NCBI GenBank assembly: GCA_947474565.1 | Contig: CANJIS010000020.1 | Location: forward strand, 1 to 37,686 | From: Alphaproteobacteria bacterium | Lineage (GTDB): Bacteria; Pseudomonadota; Alphaproteobacteria; Micropepsales; Micropepsaceae | Direction of reading: 5' to 3' | DNA: 37,686 bases | Part shown: positions 6,545-36,970 of the stretch, piece by piece | Layout of the letters: each line of letters begins with the position of its first letter | Position numbering within the stretch: position 1 is the stretch's first letter | The notes under the pieces: generated by a model | Database searches by the model: none | Seen by the model: the letters and a program-made list of their open reading frames with translations, nothing else | What the model was told of the DNA's origin: nothing | Made by a program: the position numbers and the translations under genes

Positions 6545-7102
6545 TTAACGGTTCATCTGCTCAAGCATCGCCTTGTCTTGAGGATCATTCGGATCCGGAA
6601 CGTAATCCGGATCGCCGCGCCGTGCCGCCGGCTTGGTCGCGATCAGCCTGAGATCAAAGACAAGCGTCTGGTTGGGCGGAATCAGGCCATTGGCGGCGCC
6701 GCGGTCGCCATAGGCCAGATTGGCCGGGATCACCAATTGCCAATGATCACCTTCGCGCATCAGGGTCAGCGCCTCGATCCAGCCGGGGATGACACTGTTG
6801 GCCTTGAAGCTGGCCGGCAGGCCCGGCGAAGTGCCATCGAAGATCGTGCCGTTGATCAGGACGCCGGTGTAATAGACCTGCACCGTGTCGGTGACGGTGG
6901 GGCGGCGGCCGAAGCCGTTCTGCAAAATCTTGAACTGCAATCCGTCGGGACGGACAATCACGCCCTGTTTTTTGGCGTTGTCCATCAGGAAAGCCTTGTT
7001 GGCCTCCGCGCTCAAGGCTTCGTCTGCTGCGCGCGCCGGAAGCGATGAGATCGCCGGCAGGCCAACCAACAGGAACGCAAAAAATACTACGACTCGCCGC
7101 AT
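6545..7102 (-). CDS. Secreted FKBP-type peptidyl-prolyl isomerase
   Basis: A 185-residue protein. I chose ATG 7102 rather than the upstream in-frame ATG at 7147 because it is preceded by GGAGAG about 7 nt away and starts a clean signal peptide (MRRVVVFF ... PARA-ADEA). An N-terminal helical segment with the conserved pattern DEALSxxANKxFL precedes one FKBP domain (about 55-155) with YYTGVLINGTIFDG, VIPGWIEAL and NLAYGDRG; the active-site Tyr, Phe-Asp, Trp and Tyr positions are retained. A charged 25-residue tail follows. It probably folds periplasmic proteins, and lies in one operon with the glucan synthase. A diverged paralogue is at 36230-36796. Confidence 0.9.
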   Translation of the reverse strand: MRRVVVFFAFLLVGLPAISSLPARAADEALSAEANKAFLMDNAKKQGVIVRPDGLQFKILQNGFGRRPTVTDTVQVYYTGVLINGTIFDGTSPGLPASFKANSVIPGWIEALTLMREGDHWQLVIPANLAYGDRGAANGLIPPNQTLVFDLRLIATKPAARRGDPDYVPDPNDPQDKAMLEQMNR

Positions 7103-7202
7103 GGGTGTTCTCTCCGGGCCGGGACTATACCCAGCCGCAATACGCATCCTAGCCCCAGCCCAAGGGAACCCCGGCTTTTTGGCGAATTTTGGACTTTTTT
7201 TG

Positions 7203-30386: not shown

Positions 30387-30818
30387 TCAGGCTGTTTTCA
30401 GATCTTTGAGGAGCGCGCGCAGCTGCGCCGCATTCTCCTTGCCATTGAGCGTTTCAAAGCGCGTCTGGGCTCTGCGCCACAGCGGAACGGCCTGCTCGAA
30501 CACGGCCTGGCCCGCTGGCGTCAGGCTGATCGCCCGCGCCCTTCGGTCGTTTTTCGAACGCGCGATGCGGATCAGTTTTGCCGCTTCCAGAGGGCGCAGA
30601 TTCTTCCCGGCCGTGGTGCGGTCCAGTTCCAGCCTTCCGGCGATGGAATTGACCGTAACCTCGCCTTCCCGATTGACCATCGCCAGGATGGCAAATTGCG
30701 TGGCGCGAAGCCCCGCTACGGCCAGTTCGGAATCATAATAGTTGGAAATGCGCCGCGCCGCCTTGCGCAGCACGGCGCAATTGCATTCGGGGGAAGAGGT
30801 ATGCGTCGCTTCTGCCAT
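30387..30818 (-). CDS. MarR-family transcriptional regulator
   Basis: About 143 residues from ATG 30818; an upstream ATG at 30863 is in frame but overlaps the palindrome of the divergent promoter. The winged helix is visible as LRATQFAILAMVNREGEVTVNSIAGRLELDRTTAGKNLRPLEAAKLI, with RSKNDRRARAISLTPAG as the wing. The N-terminus has ECNCAVLRKAARRI; the Cys-x-Cys is common in this subgroup and might sense oxidants or a reactive ligand (inference). It diverges from the iorAB operon, and the 12-bp palindrome between them is a good candidate for its operator. The Rap1a-like gene follows. Confidence 0.9.
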   Translation of the reverse strand: MAEATHTSSPECNCAVLRKAARRISNYYDSELAVAGLRATQFAILAMVNREGEVTVNSIAGRLELDRTTAGKNLRPLEAAKLIRIARSKNDRRARAISLTPAGQAVFEQAVPLWRRAQTRFETLNGKENAAQLRALLKDLKTA

Positions 30819-30839
30819 GATTGCCGTCAGCGCCTGGGT

Positions 30840-30869
30840 TTGACTGGACTTGATTAGGAGCATATGCTC
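30840..30869 (+). promoter_or_regulatory. Sigma-70-type promoter of iorA with palindromic operator over the -10 box
   Basis: TTGACT (30840-30845), 17 nt, then TATGCT (30863-30868) is close to the housekeeping consensus and lies about 70 nt before iorA. The perfect palindrome GAGCATATGCTC (30858-30869) covers the -10 box. This is where a repressor of the divergent MarR type would bind. The match and spacing are seen directly; regulation is inferred. Confidence 0.6.
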
Positions 30870-30937
30870 GCAACTGGCGCAAGGCCATTTGGATTGGGAA
30901 TTTTCCGAGCCGCGGCGTCATGCAAAGGAGCAAGGCG

Positions 30938-31393
30938 ATGGTCACGCTTTCAATCAACGGTCAACCGCATACCATAGACGCCGCGAACGACACCCCGCTG
31001 CTCTGGGCCCTGCGCGACTTTGTCGGCCTGACCGGAACCAAATTCGGTTGCGGCATCGCGCAATGCGGCGCCTGCACGGTTCATGTTGACGGCAAGGCGG
31101 TTCGCTCCTGCCAGCTCACAATCGGCAATGTCGGCAACAAGGCCATCACCACCATCGAGGCTATCGGCGAGACGCCCATTGGCGCCAAGATCCAAAAAGC
31201 CTGGGCGGAAATTGACGTGGTGCAATGCGGCTATTGCCAGTCGGGCCAGGTTATGTCGGCGGTGGCGTTGCTCAACCGCACACCAAACCCCGATGACTCT
31301 GATATCGACGCCGCAATGGCGGGCAACATCTGCCGCTGCGGCACCTATGTCCGCATTCGCCAGGCGATCAAGAACGCCGCGAAATCGGCCTGA
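30938..31393 (+). CDS. iorA: Isoquinoline 1-oxidoreductase-type small subunit, two [2Fe-2S] clusters
   Basis: A 151-residue electron-transfer subunit of a molybdenum hydroxylase. The N-terminal ferredoxin-like domain binds one cluster through Cys38, 43, 46 and 58 (CGIAQCGAC...C); the helical C-terminal domain binds the second through Cys97, 100, 132 and 134 (CGYCQSG...CRC). ATG 30938 is chosen over an upstream ATG because AAAGGAG lies 7 nt before it. It passes electrons from the Mo cofactor subunit to an outside acceptor, probably a cytochrome or the respiratory chain, because no FAD subunit is present. It lies 11 nt before iorB. A near-consensus promoter with a palindrome lies upstream. Confidence 0.93.
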
Positions 31394-31404
31394 GGGAAAA
31401 CATC

Positions 31405-33579
31405 ATGACCATTCAGAAAAAGAGCGGAAATGCCACTGCACTCTCCCGCCGCAATCTTTTGAAAGTCGGTGCCGCCGCGGGCGGCGGACTTCTGCTCAGC
31501 TTCCACACTCCTTCGGCCCTGGCACAGGCGCCGGCCGCCACGCCCTATGTCCTCAACCCCAACGCCTTCATCGCCATCGCACCGGATGGAAAAGTTACGT
31601 TCCAGATTCCGCAGCAGGAAATGGGACAAGGCGTCTATACATCGCTGTCCCAGCTTCTCGCCGATGAGTTGGATGTTTCCTTCGATATGGTCACCCCCCT
31701 GCCCGCGCCGCCTGTCGACGCGCTCTATGGAAGCCCGCGCTCGCACCGCATGGGCACCGGCGGCTCGCAATCCATACGCAGCTTCTATTATCCCCTGCGC
31801 CAGGTGGGCGCCTCGGGCCGCGCCATGCTGGTGCAAGCCGCCGCGAACCAGTGGAAAGTAAATCCCGCCACGCTGCGCACCGAAGCCGGGCAGGTGATCG
31901 ACGATGCCCATGGCGGGCGCAAACTGTCTTATGGCGAGCTTGCGCCGCGCGCTGCCAAGCTGCCCGCGCCGCAAAATCCCAAAATCAAGGATGACAAAGA
32001 TCTCAAGCTGATCGGCCGCTCCGTCCATCGCCTGGACGCCGTGCAGAAAGGCAACGGCACCGCGCAATACGGCATTGACGTTCGTTTGCCGGGCATGAAA
32101 TTCGCGGCGCTTTCGGCATCCCCGGTGGTGGGCGGCAAAATCGGCCATATCGATTCCGCCAAACTTGCCGCCAACCTGCAGCTTGTCCAGTTAGACGACA
32201 TCGTAGCCGTGATTGGTCCCGATTACTGGTCGGCGCAGAAGGGCTTGCGCTCGCTCAATATCACCTGGGACGGCGGCGAAAACAGCAAGCTTGATTCAGC
32301 GCAGATCTGGAAAGAACTGCGCGCCACCAGCGAACAGAAAGGCGTCGAAGCGGTTAGCTTTGGCGACGCCGCCAGAGGCCTGGCGGACGGCGCGCGCCTG
32401 GATGCCGCTTATGAAATGCCCTTCCTGTCCCATGCGCCGATGGAGCCGCAAAATTTCACTGTGCATGTCACGGCGCGCGTCTGTGAGATGTGGGGCGGCA
32501 GCCAGTCCCAGACCGGCGCGGTCGCTGCCGCGGCGAAGGCGCTGGGCATCACGCCGGACAAGATAACATTCCACAATTACATGATGGGCGGCGGCTTTGG
32601 CCGCAGGCTCGACAGCGACATGGTGGTGAAGTCCGCGCGCATCGCCCAGAAAGTGGACGGCCCCGTTCAGGTGATCTGGAGCCGCGAAGAAGACACCACC
32701 CAGGACATGTATCGCCCCGCCTATCGAAATGTGATGTCGGCCAGCCTGTCACCCAAGGGCAGGATCAATGGCTGGAGCCACCGCATCGCCGGCGGCTCTA
32801 TCTCGGTTCGCATGTCGGGAAAACCGCTCACCGGCGGCCTGGATCGCGGCAATGTCGATGGCGCGCTGGACAATGTCTATGGCGTGGACAACTACCGGGT
32901 CGAGTATATCCAGGCCGAACCCCGCGCCCTCAATCTGGGTTACTGGCGCGGCGTAGCGCCCAACAACAATGTCTTCGCCATTGAAAGCCTGATGGATGAA
33001 CTGGCGCGCAAGGCCGGCCAGGATCCGGTGGCGTTCCGCCTGGCGCATCTGGACAAGACCCCGCGCCTGAAAGCGGCGTTGAGCCAAGTGGCGCAGAAGG
33101 CCAACTGGGGAAAGAAAATGCCGCCCCGCTGGGGTCAGGGCGTTTGCGCTCAGTTCGCCTTCGGCACCTACATAACCACCATCGCCGAAGTGGAAGTGGG
33201 CACCGATGGCGAAGTGCGGGTGCATAAATTCACTTCGGTGGTGGATGCCGGCCGCACCGTCAATCCCGACACCATTGTCGCCCAGCTTCAGGGCGGACTG
33301 ATCTTCGGCACCACGGCCGCCCTGTTTGGCAACATCACCGTGAAGGATGGCCGGGTGCAGCAGACCAATTTCAACAATTACCGCATCATGCGCATCAACG
33401 AAGCTCCCGCGACCGACATCACGGTGGTCAAAAGCATTGAAGCGCCAGGCGGAATCGGCGAACCGGGTTGTTCGGCCGGCCCACCTTCCATCGTCAACGC
33501 CATAGCGGCGGCCACGGGCGTGCGCTTGCGCAGCCTGCCAATTGATCGCCAGTTGCTGGCCGCAAAACGCTCAGTATAG
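31405..33579 (+). CDS. iorB: Isoquinoline 1-oxidoreductase-type large subunit, molybdopterin-binding, Tat-exported
   Basis: A 724-residue subunit. The N-terminus carries a twin-arginine signal (SRRNLLK, residues 14-20, then a Gly/Ala/Leu core and ALAQ), so the folded Mo enzyme should go to the periplasm together with iorA. The body has the two molybdopterin-binding regions with MGQGVYTSLSQLLADELD near residue 73, MGGGFGRRLDSDMVVKSA near 393, and GGIGEPGCSAGP with catalytic Glu686. Relatives hydroxylate N-heterocycles such as isoquinoline or oxidise aldehydes; the substrate here is unknown. No cytochrome or XdhC-like chaperone gene is adjacent. The neighbouring alcohol dehydrogenase is compatible with an aldehyde substrate (inference). 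Confidence 0.93.
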   Translation: MTIQKKSGNATALSRRNLLKVGAAAGGGLLLSFHTPSALAQAPAATPYVLNPNAFIAIAPDGKVTFQIPQQEMGQGVYTSLSQLLADELDVSFDMVTPLPAPPVDALYGSPRSHRMGTGGSQSIRSFYYPLRQVGASGRAMLVQAAANQWKVNPATLRTEAGQVIDDAHGGRKLSYGELAPRAAKLPAPQNPKIKDDKDLKLIGRSVHRLDAVQKGNGTAQYGIDVRLPGMKFAALSASPVVGGKIGHIDSAKLAANLQLVQLDDIVAVIGPDYWSAQKGLRSLNITWDGGENSKLDSAQIWKELRATSEQKGVEAVSFGDAARGLADGARLDAAYEMPFLSHAPMEPQNFTVHVTARVCEMWGGSQSQTGAVAAAAKALGITPDKITFHNYMMGGGFGRRLDSDMVVKSARIAQKVDGPVQVIWSREEDTTQDMYRPAYRNVMSASLSPKGRINGWSHRIAGGSISVRMSGKPLTGGLDRGNVDGALDNVYGVDNYRVEYIQAEPRALNLGYWRGVAPNNNVFAIESLMDELARKAGQDPVAFRLAHLDKTPRLKAALSQVAQKANWGKKMPPRWGQGVCAQFAFGTYITTIAEVEVGTDGEVRVHKFTSVVDAGRTVNPDTIVAQLQGGLIFGTTAALFGNITVKDGRVQQTNFNNYRIMRINEAPATDITVVKSIEAPGGIGEPGCSAGPPSIVNAIAAATGVRLRSLPIDRQLLAAKRSV

Positions 33580-33636
33580 GCTGAAAACCGCCGCGCCGCG
33601 TTCAAACTTCCATTTCACAACATCGGGGAGCTATCC

Positions 33637-34554
33637 ATGAGCGAAGGAATTGAACGCCGCACTGTTCTGATGGCGGCTGCGGCCGCATCCGGCATTGCCG
33701 CCATTGCGCAAGCCTCGGCGCAGCCGGCTCCCAGCGCCCGGCTCGCCGATGTGCCGCTTGCACCGGGCGTGCGGGCGACGGTGGAACGGCGCGGCCAGAT
33801 TGTGCTGATCGGCATCAATCGGCCCGAAGTGTTTAACCGCATGGACCCCGCCGGCAGCCGCGCTTTGGCGCTGGCGCTCACCGGCTATGACCGCGATGAC
33901 AGTTTGCGTTGCGCCATCCTGTTTGGGCAGGGCGAAAATTTCTCCCGCGGCGTCGATGTCGATGCGCGCCAGGCCGCCATCACCGCGCCGACGCCCGCAC
34001 CGGCGGACGCCAATGATCTCATCCGGCTTTCCGGCAACAATCCCAAACAGCGTTTGAGCAAGCCCATCATCGTGGTCGCCCATGGCGATACCTGGAATGC
34101 CGGCCATGAGATGTTCCTGGCCTGCGATATTCGCGTCTGTTCCGCCGATGTACGCTTCGGCCAGGACGAAACCAGCCATGCCCGCTTTCCCGGCGGCGGC
34201 GGCACCATCCGCATGGTGCGCGAGACCGGCTGGGGCAATGCCATGCGTTACATTCTGACCGGCGATCACTGGGGCGCACAGGAAGCGTTCCGCATGGGCC
34301 TGGTGCAGGAGATTGCGCCGACCAAGGAAGCGGCAATCGAAGCCGCAGTGCGTCTTGCCAACAAGGTGGCCGGTTGCGGGCCGCTGGGAATCAAGACCGC
34401 TCTTGCCAACGCCCATCTGGCGCTGGACGAAGGCGAGCCAGCGGCCTTTGCCGTGGCGGGCAAGCAATATGGCGATCTGTACCTCACCAAAGATTTCCTG
34501 GAAGGCCGCAAGGCCGAAGCCGAGAACAGGCCAGCTGTTTATATCGGCCAGTAA
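33637..34554 (+). CDS. Crotonase-fold protein with a predicted twin-arginine signal
   Basis: A 305-residue protein. GGGGAG lies 6 nt before ATG 33637. Residues 1-29 look like a Tat signal: ERRTVLM, an Ala-rich core, AQASAQP. Residues about 44-300 are an enoyl-CoA hydratase-like fold: INRPEVFNRMD (first oxyanion region), GQGENFSRGVDVD, NAGHEMFLACD with Glu158, and FGQDETSHARFPGGGGT with Glu178, the two acids of hydratases. The Gly-Gly-Gly before the first Glu is A-G-H, so the second oxyanion loop is altered. CoA thioesters are cytoplasmic, so an exported crotonase is unexpected; it may act on a non-CoA substrate, or the N-terminus may be a cytoplasmic extension. It lies 57 nt after iorB. Confidence 0.82.
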   Translation: MSEGIERRTVLMAAAAASGIAAIAQASAQPAPSARLADVPLAPGVRATVERRGQIVLIGINRPEVFNRMDPAGSRALALALTGYDRDDSLRCAILFGQGENFSRGVDVDARQAAITAPTPAPADANDLIRLSGNNPKQRLSKPIIVVAHGDTWNAGHEMFLACDIRVCSADVRFGQDETSHARFPGGGGTIRMVRETGWGNAMRYILTGDHWGAQEAFRMGLVQEIAPTKEAAIEAAVRLANKVAGCGPLGIKTALANAHLALDEGEPAAFAVAGKQYGDLYLTKDFLEGRKAEAENRPAVYIGQ

Positions 34555-34588
34555 GCCGATCGACCAGTAAGCCGATTGATAAGTAAGC
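34548..34588 (+). repeat. 16-bp tandem repeat across the crotonase stop codon
   Basis: CCAGTAAGCCGATCGA (34548-34563) is followed directly by CCAGTAAGCCGATTGA (34564-34579), one base different, and then by a partial third unit TAAGTAAGC (34580-34588). Unit 1 contains the crotonase stop. Two further TAA triplets follow, one in each later unit. Confidence 0.75.
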
Positions 34589-34644
34589 TTCTTATCGCCG
34601 CCACATCCCGCTATTAGTTTCGTCCGAATTCGACAGGAGCCGTC

Positions 34645-35700
34645 ATGAACGTCAAAGCCTATGCCGCCCAATCCGCCACCACGCCGCTGGCGCCCTGGAC
34701 CGTGGACCGCCGCGCGCCCGGGCCCAAGGATGTTGCGATTGAGATTCTGTATTGCGGCGTTTGCCATTCCGACATGCACACCGCGCGCGGCGAATGGCAC
34801 GGCGTGCAATTTCCGGCCGTGCCGGGGCATGAGATCATCGGCAAGGTGGCGGCGGTCGGCAAGGAAGTGACCAAGTTCAAGCCCGGCCAGGTTGTCGGTG
34901 TGGGCTGCATGGTGGCTTCCTGCCGCGTTTGCGACAGCTGCGGCGAAGGCCTGGAACAGTTTTGCAACGGCCCCGTCAGCTTCACCGGCACCTATAACGG
35001 TCCGGTTGGCGGCGGTGCGAATACCTATGGCGGCTATTCCACCGCCATCACGGTGGATCAGGATTTTGTGCTTGCCGTCAATCATGGCGAGAAAGACCTG
35101 GCCGGCGCCGCCCCCTTGCTCTGCGCCGGCATCACCACCTGGTCGCCCTTGCGCCACTGGAAAGCCGGACCCGGCAAGAAAGTCGGCATTGTCGGTATCG
35201 GCGGGCTCGGTCATATGGGCGTCAAGCTGGCGCACGCGTTGGGCGCGCATGTCGTGGCCTTCACCACCTCCAAGGACAAAGTTGCCGACGCCAAGAAGCT
35301 GGGCGCCGACGAAGTCGTGATCTCCAAAGATCCCGAAGCCATGAAGAGCCACGCCAACAGCTTCGACCTCATCATCAACACCGTGGCGGCGTCGCACGAC
35401 CTGGACGCTTACATGGTGCTGCTCAAGCGTGACGGCACCCAGGTTCTGGTGGGCGCGCCGCCCACCCCGCACCCCTCGCCCGCCGCCTTCAACCTGATCT
35501 TCAAGCGCCGCAGCCTGGGCGGCTCGCTGATCGGCGGCATCGCCGAGACGCAGGAGATGCTGGATTTCTGCGCCAAGAACGGCATCACTTCGGATATCGA
35601 GATGATCCCGATGCAGGACATCAACAAAGCCTATGACCGGATGCTGAAAAGCGATGTGAAATATCGCTTTGTCATCGACATGGCATCGCTCAAGGCATGA
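34645..35700 (+). CDS. Zinc-dependent NAD(P) alcohol dehydrogenase, cinnamyl-alcohol type
   Basis: A 351-residue medium-chain dehydrogenase. The catalytic zinc site has Cys40 (CGVCHSDMH), His62-Glu63 (PGHEIIG) and a Cys in LLCAGITTWSP; structural zinc is bound by Cys93, 96, 99 and 107. The nucleotide-binding motif is VGIVGIGGLGHMGVKLAHALG (about 185-205); the residue after the second strand (FTTSKDK) suggests NADP preference. This is the YahK/AdhC/CAD branch that reduces a range of aldehydes or oxidises primary alcohols. AGGAG precedes ATG 34645. It overlaps CutA by ATGA. It could supply or consume an aldehyde for the adjacent Mo enzyme, though one is cytoplasmic and the other exported. Confidence 0.93.
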   Translation: MNVKAYAAQSATTPLAPWTVDRRAPGPKDVAIEILYCGVCHSDMHTARGEWHGVQFPAVPGHEIIGKVAAVGKEVTKFKPGQVVGVGCMVASCRVCDSCGEGLEQFCNGPVSFTGTYNGPVGGGANTYGGYSTAITVDQDFVLAVNHGEKDLAGAAPLLCAGITTWSPLRHWKAGPGKKVGIVGIGGLGHMGVKLAHALGAHVVAFTTSKDKVADAKKLGADEVVISKDPEAMKSHANSFDLIINTVAASHDLDAYMVLLKRDGTQVLVGAPPTPHPSPAAFNLIFKRRSLGGSLIGGIAETQEMLDFCAKNGITSDIEMIPMQDINKAYDRMLKSDVKYRFVIDMASLKA

Positions 35701-36023
35701 CCGCGGCTGCGTTCGGCGTCGTCACAACGACAGTGTCCAAGCCCGAGGACGCCGAGCGGCTTGCCGAACTTGTGCTGTCGGAAAAGCTGGCGGCCTGTGT
35801 GCAGATCCTGCCCATCGCCAGCCGCTACGTGTGGAAGGGCGAAAAGATGCAGGAGCAGGAAAGGATGCTCCTGATCAAGACACGCGCCAGCCTGTTCGAC
35901 AAAGTGATGGCGCGGATCGCGCAAGATCATCCCTATGAAACACCGGAGCTGGTGGCCACGCCCTTCGCGGCCGGAGCCGCCGGTTATCTGGGCTGGATTG
36001 CGCAAAACACGAAAGACGCCTGA
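35697..36023 (+). CDS. cutA: CutA1 divalent-cation tolerance protein
   Basis: A 108-residue trimeric ferredoxin-like protein. VVTTTVSKPEDAERLAELVLSEKLAACVQILPIASRYVWKGE covers the typical first half with the conserved Cys; EERMLLIKTRASLF and HPYETPELVATPFAAG follow (the H-P-Y-x-x-P motif). It has been linked to copper tolerance in E. coli, but the true role is debated. It overlaps the alcohol dehydrogenase by 4 nt and converges on the small lipoprotein gene, whose stop begins one base after its own. Confidence 0.94.
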   Translation: MTAAAFGVVTTTVSKPEDAERLAELVLSEKLAACVQILPIASRYVWKGEKMQEQERMLLIKTRASLFDKVMARIAQDHPYETPELVATPFAAGAAGYLGWIAQNTKDA

Positions 36024-36233
36024 TTATTTCGGCGAGGCCGCCATGCGGCAGGTCAGATGCTGCGTCGTTCCAGGCATGGCATTCTTGTTGCAGCCGGTAT
36101 AGGCCGCGCGTTCATGCTGCTGCTGATCGAACCGCGCCTTGTCGGTTTTCAATTGATCGAATTTCTGCGGCACGCCGCAGGCGCAAAGAGCAAGAGGCAG
36201 CGCAAGACATAAAAGTGTCCGCACCATCATCAT
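36024..36233 (-). CDS. Small putative lipoprotein
   Basis: A 69-residue protein that I do not recognise. The N-terminus (MMMVRTLLCLALPLALCACG) looks like a lipoprotein signal: a basic residue, a Leu/Ala core, and a possible lipobox L-C-A-C with Cys19. The mature part is short and Gln/Asp/Lys-rich, with two more Cys near residues 48 and 62. It starts inside the FKBP stop (ATGA overlap), so it is probably translated with that gene; there are three consecutive candidate ATG or GTG codons. A role beside the secreted FKBP in the periplasm is plausible only from context. Confidence 0.65.
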   Translation of the reverse strand: MMMVRTLLCLALPLALCACGVPQKFDQLKTDKARFDQQQHERAAYTGCNKNAMPGTTQHLTCRMAASPK

Positions 36234-36796
36234 TGCGGGAAGCTCAAAAACGCCCCTGCCCGCCGCTCAAAGCCCTGCGATGACGAACTGACGCCGAAGC
36301 CAACGCCCGGGGCCTGGCCCGGCGGTGGCCCGTCGAGCACTGAGATCAGCGTAATGTCGAACACCAGACTCTGATTGGGCGGGATGGCGCCATTGGCTGC
36401 ACCGGCGGAGCCGAAGCCCAGACTGGCGGGCATCACCACCTGCCAGCGTTCGCCGACATGCATCAACTGCAGCGCCTCATTCATGCCCCGGATCAAGGCG
36501 CTGACCGCGGCGGTAGCGGGAAGGCCGGGCGACGCGCCGTCGAACACCGTGCCGTTGATCAGCTTGCCGCTATAGACGATCTGCACAGTGTCGCGCGGAC
36601 CGGGCCGCTTGCCGAAACCGGGCGTCAGAATGCGGTACTGCAAACCATCGGGCAGTTTCACCACGCCCGGCTTGGCGGCATTGGCGGCGAGGAAGGATTT
36701 GTTGGCGCCATCGCTCAGCGCCTCGTCCACAGCCTGGCCAAACGCTGGACCAACGCAGGCAGCAGCAAGAACAAGGATCAAGGCGGGCAAACGCAT
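36230..36796 (-). CDS. Second secreted FKBP-type protein, diverged active site
   Basis: A 188-residue paralogue of the protein at 6545-7102, sharing the unusual N-terminal helix pattern (DEALSDGANKSFLAANAAKPGVV). ATG 36796 begins a signal peptide (MRLPALILVLAAACVGPAFG-QA); a longer frame is open upstream but has no such signal. The FKBP domain (about 60-155) keeps IVYSGKLINGTVFDG, but the active-site Trp (G-W in the paralogue) is Met (RGMNEAL), and the Tyr of A-Y-G-D-R-G is Phe (SLGFGSAG). A Gly/Ser-rich tail follows. It may be a weak isomerase or a pure chaperone (inference). It is followed by the small lipoprotein. Confidence 0.85.
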   Translation of the reverse strand: MRLPALILVLAAACVGPAFGQAVDEALSDGANKSFLAANAAKPGVVKLPDGLQYRILTPGFGKRPGPRDTVQIVYSGKLINGTVFDGASPGLPATAAVSALIRGMNEALQLMHVGERWQVVMPASLGFGSAGAANGAIPPNQSLVFDITLISVLDGPPPGQAPGVGFGVSSSSQGFERRAGAFLSFPQ

Positions 36797-36970
36797 ATTT
36801 GTGAGGTAGCGGATAATCGGGCTGCCGCCAAATGGCGATCGGGCAATTATCCCACAGCCGCTCCCGATATCCATTTGATTCTGCCTAGTTTTTAAACAAT
36901 TTCGCTTTTGCAACAATAGCTAAAGACGCTTTGCAACACCATGACGTGCATGTAACCTGCGCCGCAGAGT

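Follow-up and report, generated by a model that had tools for sequence, protein, structure and literature searches.

We examined a 37,686-nucleotide stretch of DNA (hereafter the window) from an alphaproteobacterium of the family Micropepsaceae (contig CANJIS010000020.1 of assembly GCA_947474565.1, genome G000 in our sets), and its sequence leads us to consider, with a probability of roughly 0.7, that the crotonase encoded near its end is exported by the twin-arginine translocation (Tat) route and belongs to a clade that has dispensed with coenzyme A (CoA). Crotonases are textbook CoA enzymes, for which CoA serves as the handle. The protein is a clear member of the superfamily, its ECH_1 profile score of 110.6 bits lying above the curated cut-off of 27, and the features of the gene that carry the argument, with their counterparts in rat mitochondrial enoyl-CoA hydratase (ECH), are the following:

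33637-34554, plus strand: crotonase (ECH_1, E 1.1e-31)
33637-33720, plus strand: twin-arginine leader of the crotonase (ERRTVLM...ASA), MSEGIERRTVLMAAAAASGIAAIAQASA
33838-33840, plus strand: codon of Arg68, which replaces adenine-facing rat Ala60 (Arg in 44 of 45 family rows, His in 1)
34081-34110, plus strand: HGDTWNxxHE, the signature of the clade, covering residues 149-158 with Glu158 (rat ECH Glu144) as the last
34168-34170, plus strand: codon of Glu178 (rat ECH Glu164; 45 of 45 family rows)
34516-34518, plus strand: codon of Glu294, which replaces adenine-facing rat Phe279 (Glu, Gln or Asp in 43 of 45 family rows)

Relatives were gathered by scanning species genomes with a two-row profile, made of the window protein and its relative in genome G355, with ILFG[QH]G[ED]N and [VA][AV]HGDTWN as the patterns for selection; of the 53 loci obtained, 49 lie at 47-67% identity. 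Seven of the 52 family rows (L033, L071, L073, L074, L077, L078 and L080) are truncated, frameshifted or partial and entered neither the residue counts nor the tree; 30 controls entered the leader rule described below, and 24 of these also entered the counts and the tree. In a quick tree of the resulting 45 family and 24 control rows the family forms one clade with an SH-aLRT support of 100, and its members come from Pseudomonadota, Acidobacteriota and Bacteroidota. In the literature searched, at the level of titles and the beginnings of abstracts and with subscription titles thinly covered, nothing was found on an exported or Tat-dependent crotonase or enoyl-CoA hydratase; passages of PMC8538451 concern rubber-degradation genes.

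The evidence for the loss of CoA lies in the pocket. Passages of PMC13126182 describe how rat ECH holds the adenine between Ala60, Ile100 and Phe279 of the next subunit and the 3'-phosphate of CoA by Lys101 and Lys282, with Glu144 and Glu164 as the catalytic residues, and passages of PMC3660561 supplied DmdD of Ruegeria as a comparison crotonase for the ECH residues. Mapping ran through an alignment to T. cruzi ECH (9qwv), which stands at a constant offset of 23 from rat numbering: rat Ala60, Ala96, Lys101, Glu144, Glu164, Phe279 and Lys282 are T. cruzi Ala37, Ala73, Lys78, Glu121, Glu141, Phe256 and Lys259, and fall on window residues 68, 104, 109, 158, 178, 294 and 297. At position 68, where the family carries Arg, 22 of the 24 controls have Gly or Ala. 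Position 294 is Glu in 32 family rows, Gln in 9, Asp in 2, Tyr in 1 and Thr in 1, as against Phe or Met in 24/24 controls, and at position 104 all 45 family rows have Arg, Gln, Lys or His where all 24 controls have Ala or Gly. The Lys282 position, N297 in the window protein, is not basic in 33 of the 45 family rows and basic in all 24 controls. Taking positions 68, 294 and 297 together, all three are ECH-like in 23/24 controls, while in the family none is in 32/45 rows and one is in 13/45. In the window protein the adenine-pocket and 3'-phosphate residues of ECH are absent (R68, E294, D109 and N297 stand in their places), and because the CoA-binding features looked for are not there, the name enoyl-CoA hydratase does not fit it. 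A non-CoA substrate, as the initial annotation of this DNA had suggested, is therefore likely, although the protein may still act like an enoyl-CoA hydratase on another substrate. It is a guess that Arg68 of one subunit might pair with Glu294 of the next and so occupy the adenine site.

The catalytic apparatus, in contrast, is kept. Glu158 and Glu178 are invariant in the 45 family rows, and indeed in all 69 rows when the controls are added. The signature in its form HGD[TC]WNxxHE occurs in 50/52 family rows and 0/30 controls, the constancy of residues 149-154 being partly a product of selection because HGDTWN was in the scan patterns; positions 68, 104, 109, 157, 158, 178, 211, 294 and 297 lie outside them. 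Constant in the family and rare in the controls are D70, H149, D151, W153, N154, H157, R166, R183, H211 and W212. As both glutamates are kept, addition or removal of water, or migration of a double bond, is the most economical reading of the chemistry, and the conserved Arg and His residues point to a small, charged substrate. In the mechanism we propose, the protein would be exported from the cytoplasm in the cell, its substrate would be an unsaturated carbonyl compound, small and free (an acid, an aldehyde or a ketone), whose charge a subset of the conserved Arg and His residues would bind in place of CoA, and Glu158 and Glu178 would add or remove water, or shift the double bond, beside the carbonyl.

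A predicted model built from 45 sequences (mean pLDDT 81.6) has the ordinary crotonase fold and matches 3swx_A with a Z score of 30.2 and an rmsd of 2.4 over 252 residues at 36% identity; the leader, residues 1-29, is modelled at pLDDT below 50. The best NCBIfam and structural matches are with the PRK06563/NF005126 subfamily and the solved proteins 3swx and 3lao, though the NF005126 score of 231.9 bits falls under the membership cut-off of 261. The nearest leaderless relatives, our 24 controls, keep the ECH-type pocket, unlike the window clade. With rat ECH and DmdD (PMC13126182 and PMC3660561) the window protein has the crotonase fold and both glutamates in common; it differs from them in its export leader, in HGDTWNxxHE and in the replaced adenine pocket. 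The superfamily does include a crotonase-fold enzyme with a CoA-free substrate, 6-oxocamphor hydrolase. That enzyme has a His/Asp active site, and hydrolysis of its kind was set aside since the window protein keeps both ECH glutamates. It did not appear among the matches listed for the alignment and fold searches, an absence that does not exclude it, and the literature search turned up no paper on it.

The sequence also supports the export leader that had been noted on the crotonase. The window protein has the twin-arginine motif, the hydrophobic stretch and the AxA-like site of a Tat substrate, and the closest relative found carries a leader, MADDGLERRTLLKSAAVLAGLVTVAAEATA, nearer to the Tat consensus than its own. 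A home-made leader rule called 17 family rows Tat, 12 Sec-like and 23 without leader (29/52 with a leader), as against 0/30 controls, and the genome has one match to TatC. Given the relative's better match, these counts and the TatC gene, the leader is unlikely to be a product of chance. For the tree, L034 and three Methylobacterium rows (L047, L060 and L068), all 'none' by the rule, were relabelled Tat by eye, and L075, doubtfully Sec-like by the rule, was left unlabelled, which gives 20 Tat, 9 Sec, 15 leaderless and 1 unlabelled row and requires 6 changes of state. The Sec-led rows of Pseudomonas and those of Bradyrhizobium sit on separate starred branches, pointing to two origins, so that export appears to have been re-equipped and not merely inherited; Tat may be the older state, with 30/66 inner branches open. 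Tat and Sec leaders on one mature domain are, as predictions go, better evidence for an extracytoplasmic site than any single leader call. Since the leaderless members share the pocket replacements, loss of CoA and export are separable traits. Two leaderless Bradyrhizobium crotonases (L037 and L043) have upstream remnants resembling the end of a leader, and a Methylobacterium copy (L071) has a Tat-like leader in a different frame.

Several points weigh against this interpretation. Export is not universal in the clade, since 15/45 tree rows are leaderless, though the pocket changes are still present there. The initial annotation had named such homologues as counter-evidence; their existence speaks against the gene cluster it proposed and leaves the export of the window protein untouched. 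The leader rule is our own and five of its labels were altered by eye. The controls, being the nearest leaderless relatives, do not represent crotonases at large, and we assume that they use CoA. Position 109 (rat Lys101) is Asp in 28 family rows, Glu in 14 and other in 3, but it cannot by itself separate the groups because the controls mostly lack this lysine as well (Pro in 13/24), and 12/45 family rows keep Lys or Arg at the Lys282 position. In the model, pLDDT stays below 50 for residues 179-186 in the active-site loop. For none of the clade members did we find a structure, ligand or activity on record. The clade is also rare: only G000 and G355 have matches above 50% identity among 385 genomes of the class, and matches at E <= 1e-70 occur in 3/398 genomes of the phylum, both counts being lower bounds as few candidates were scored per genome. 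Among 39 genomes of its family G355 alone has a crotonase match, and none has a match to the FAH-fold protein discussed below. Plasmid records gave 11 matches, all below 40% identity, and the one viewed, from Comamonas, lies beside a cluster with an acyl-CoA dehydrogenase-family gene.

A different account, which we think unlikely, would make the crotonase one part of a periplasmic pathway encoded by a single operon under the MarR regulator, in which IorAB oxidizes an aldehyde or N-heterocycle and the crotonase takes the product. The genes concerned were read from open reading frames and profiles, and all six that had been named proved to be present, in the order given and with leaders on iorB and the crotonase; only the start of the span needed amending, as marR runs to 30390, most of it lies to the left of 30818, and the latter is an internal ATG or alternative start of marR. 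They and the sites before iorA are:

30390-30863, minus strand: marR, a MarR-family regulator (Pfam MarR_2, E 3.2e-9), divergent from iorA
30840-30868, plus strand: sigma-70-like promoter 5' of iorA, TTGACT-17-TATGCT
30858-30869, no strand assigned: perfect 12-bp palindrome GAGCATATGCTC, overlapping the promoter -10 element and the upstream marR start
30938-31393, plus strand: iorA-like 2Fe-2S subunit (Fer2, Fer2_2)
31405-33579, plus strand: iorB-like molybdopterin subunit (MoCoBD_1/2; best PDB sequence match 8gy3_C, E 3.7e-74)
34645-35700, plus strand: zinc alcohol dehydrogenase, adh, Ahr-like by profile matches
35697-36023, plus strand: cutA, overlapping the adh stop and in the same chromosomal block as adh

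The layout gives the operon some plausibility. The crotonase follows iorB on the same strand after 57 bp, no terminator-like site was found on the plus strand between 30300 and 36250, so a single transcript is possible, and both proteins are Tat-led, iorB by ...SRRNLLKVGAAAGGGLLLSF...ALA within its first ~40 codons; by reading, iorA, adh and cutA have no twin-arginine leader. The palindrome is a candidate operator, a role that we infer, and the evidence for an iorA promoter is weak, since one such site was seen where shuffles gave an expected 1.4.

Conservation of the neighbourhood, which the initial annotation had proposed to look for, was not found, and this tells against the cluster and not against the export of the crotonase. 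The window proteins were searched at E <= 1e-6 in 50 related crotonase loci (the 49 at 47-67% identity and L031), each fetched as 3.3-19.9 kb. In these stretches iorB, adh and cutA are each found in 0/50; iorA occurs once, in L042, 7.3 kb away at the edge of what was fetched (what lies beyond was not seen), and marR-like genes occur in 2/50, kilobases off. Of the 96 genomes searched from the same family, 2 have the crotonase (E <= 1e-50), 18 have iorB (E <= 1e-150), and only the source genome has both. The second of these crotonase genomes, G451, has the gene where the window has it, flanked by sir2-clpP and adh-cutA, with an inorganic pyrophosphatase-like gene (by eye) between crotonase and adh, and has no marR or iorAB on the 12-kb contig. 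Besides G451 and the window, the surroundings of 10 of 25 cutA matches were fetched: adh adjoins cutA in G451 and in 3 of these 10, and the other 7 have cutA without adh. In two of those 3, G462 and G459, the clpP, amylase and two-component genes and adh-cutA follow in the order of the window with neither crotonase nor iorAB between them; the adh-cutA pair was therefore in the block before the crotonase and iorAB arrived, or outlasted their loss. We accordingly reject the cluster as a conserved system, and the claim that these genes form one pathway is unsupported. Among the genomes seen, marR-iorAB stands beside the crotonase in one only, so the pairing is local to the source genome. The adh gene is probably a neighbour from an older chromosomal block and not part of a crotonase unit, and IorAB may, in this genome, supply the crotonase with a substrate or have one in common with it.

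An ordinary acyl-CoA crotonase, holding CoA in an altered pocket behind a leader that is cryptic or a misread start, is improbable. Membership of ECH_1, the two glutamates and the leaderless rows would all suit such an enzyme, but the residues in contact with adenine and phosphate have given way to others of opposite character, and two separate groups have acquired Sec leaders. To our knowledge there is no acyl-CoA pool outside the cytoplasm on which it could draw. Least probable of all is that the exported protein is no enzyme and uses the crotonase scaffold for binding or for a structural role. The loss of the CoA pocket residues and the lack of a known substrate would fit, but the constancy of the glutamates (45/45) and of the clade-specific D70, H157, R166, R183, H211 and W212, which lie outside the search patterns, makes a dead enzyme unlikely.

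With the crotonase read as an exported, CoA-free enzyme, marR-iorAB probably encodes a separate exported molybdenum hydroxylase of the aldehyde dehydrogenase type. The identity first proposed for IorAB holds in outline: there is a 2Fe-2S subunit with a Tat-led MoCoBD subunit, and among proteins of solved structure the one nearest to iorB in sequence is 8gy3_C, an aldehyde dehydrogenase large subunit. The surroundings of 14 of 24 iorB matches were fetched. The window iorA is 72-87% identical to the iorA of nine loci of the same genus, and in 9/9 of these fetched iorA-iorB loci, as well as in one locus with an iorB fragment at a contig end, a cytochrome c gene lies directly downstream, an arrangement that further counts against the operon; no marR was found beside the relatives' iorAB loci. 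The four fetched relatives with iorB alone have no cytochrome c gene directly downstream. These are L113, L114, L115 and L117 (genomes G452, G414, G413 and G454), whose iorB is 63-65% identical to that of the window; no iorA or cytochrome c match was found within the 11-14 kb fetched, and genes that by eye are dsbD-like and mutL-like lie close by. In the window itself no cytochrome c gene adjoins iorAB, so it lacks the third gene of the three-gene aldehyde dehydrogenases. A second set, iorA-like, cytochrome c and iorB-like in that order, is present on contig 16 of the same genome (L140:2063-6193), its cytochrome 67% identical to the cytochrome c of the relatives. The Pseudomonas putida set PP_3621-PP_3622-PP_3623, described in passages of PMC7188995 as an aldehyde oxidase complex, shares the 2Fe-2S and molybdenum subunits with the window, where the molybdenum subunit is Tat-led; the window differs from this type in having no adjacent cytochrome c gene, a similar cytochrome being encoded on contig 16. 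IorAB may be an exported hydroxylase of the aldehyde type that relies on a borrowed electron acceptor.

The neighbours of clade members in other genomes lean towards carbonyl and aromatic catabolism, though none is constant: tautomerase, FAH-fold, Rieske oxygenase, aldehyde dehydrogenase and NmrA-like genes all occur. A tautomerase lies upstream in L033, L035 and L062 (Pfam) and in L032 (from reading the translation only), an NmrA-like cluster is present in five loci (Pfam-tested in one) and a Rieske oxygenase cluster lies within ~6 kb in five (Pfam-tested in two). A Tat-led FAH gene directly precedes the crotonase in L039, L046 and L054; in L069 neither of the two has a leader. The FAH fold seems to be another normally cytoplasmic fold that is, to judge from its leaders, apparently exported, and the literature search found no description of an exported FAH in Bradyrhizobium. 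In L039 an FMN-dependent dehydrogenase (PF01070; 5272-6522) with a Tat-like leader, its twin arginines seen by eye, a Tat-led FAH-fold protein and a Sec-like-led crotonase are consecutive and predicted to be exported. FAH matches occur in 15/265 genomes of the genus of G687, with a crotonase alongside in 3/15, all close relatives, and this low share led us to reject the FAH and crotonase as a conserved exported pair. The FAH-fold proteins concerned (L143-L157) have a twin-arginine leader by eye in 11 of the 15 matches, and 12 of the 15 stand without a crotonase. The leaders in L039, L046, L054 and L069 gave the impression of matched localization of FAH and crotonase, which is countered by L079, in which a leaderless crotonase stands beside a hydrolase with a signal-like N-terminus. 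Somewhat against the odds in our estimate, yet worth stating, is the wider proposal that the whole clade gave up CoA, that most of its branches act outside the cytoplasm by hydratase-type chemistry on free carbonyls, and that the exported FAH-fold and FMN-dependent dehydrogenase neighbours in a few soil bacteria, catabolic enzymes otherwise at home in the cytoplasm, hint at a periplasmic, CoA-free catabolic route.

Elsewhere in the window, a frame at 484-969 on the minus strand resembles a short-chain dehydrogenase at its start and an IS3-type transposase at its end (by eye), and is perhaps an insertion remnant. Two FKBP-type isomerase frames that resemble each other, both with a signal-like N-terminus, lie at 6545-7147 and 36230-36916 on the minus strand; the BamJ profile, for the latter frame only, scored 88.3 bits against a cut-off of 100.

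Passages of PMC13126182 report that in ECH the adenine part of CoA sets up the oxyanion hole, and that kcat/KM falls about a million-fold when pantetheine takes the place of CoA. If our interpretation is right, the clade, with its catalytic pair kept and its CoA pocket lost, would show how crotonase chemistry can proceed free of CoA, and would offer a starting point for CoA-free hydratases. Annotation would benefit as well, since by profile these proteins resemble enoyl-CoA hydratases and are likely labelled as such. The interpretation would also suggest that some of the chemistry usually assigned to the cytoplasm takes place in the periplasm.

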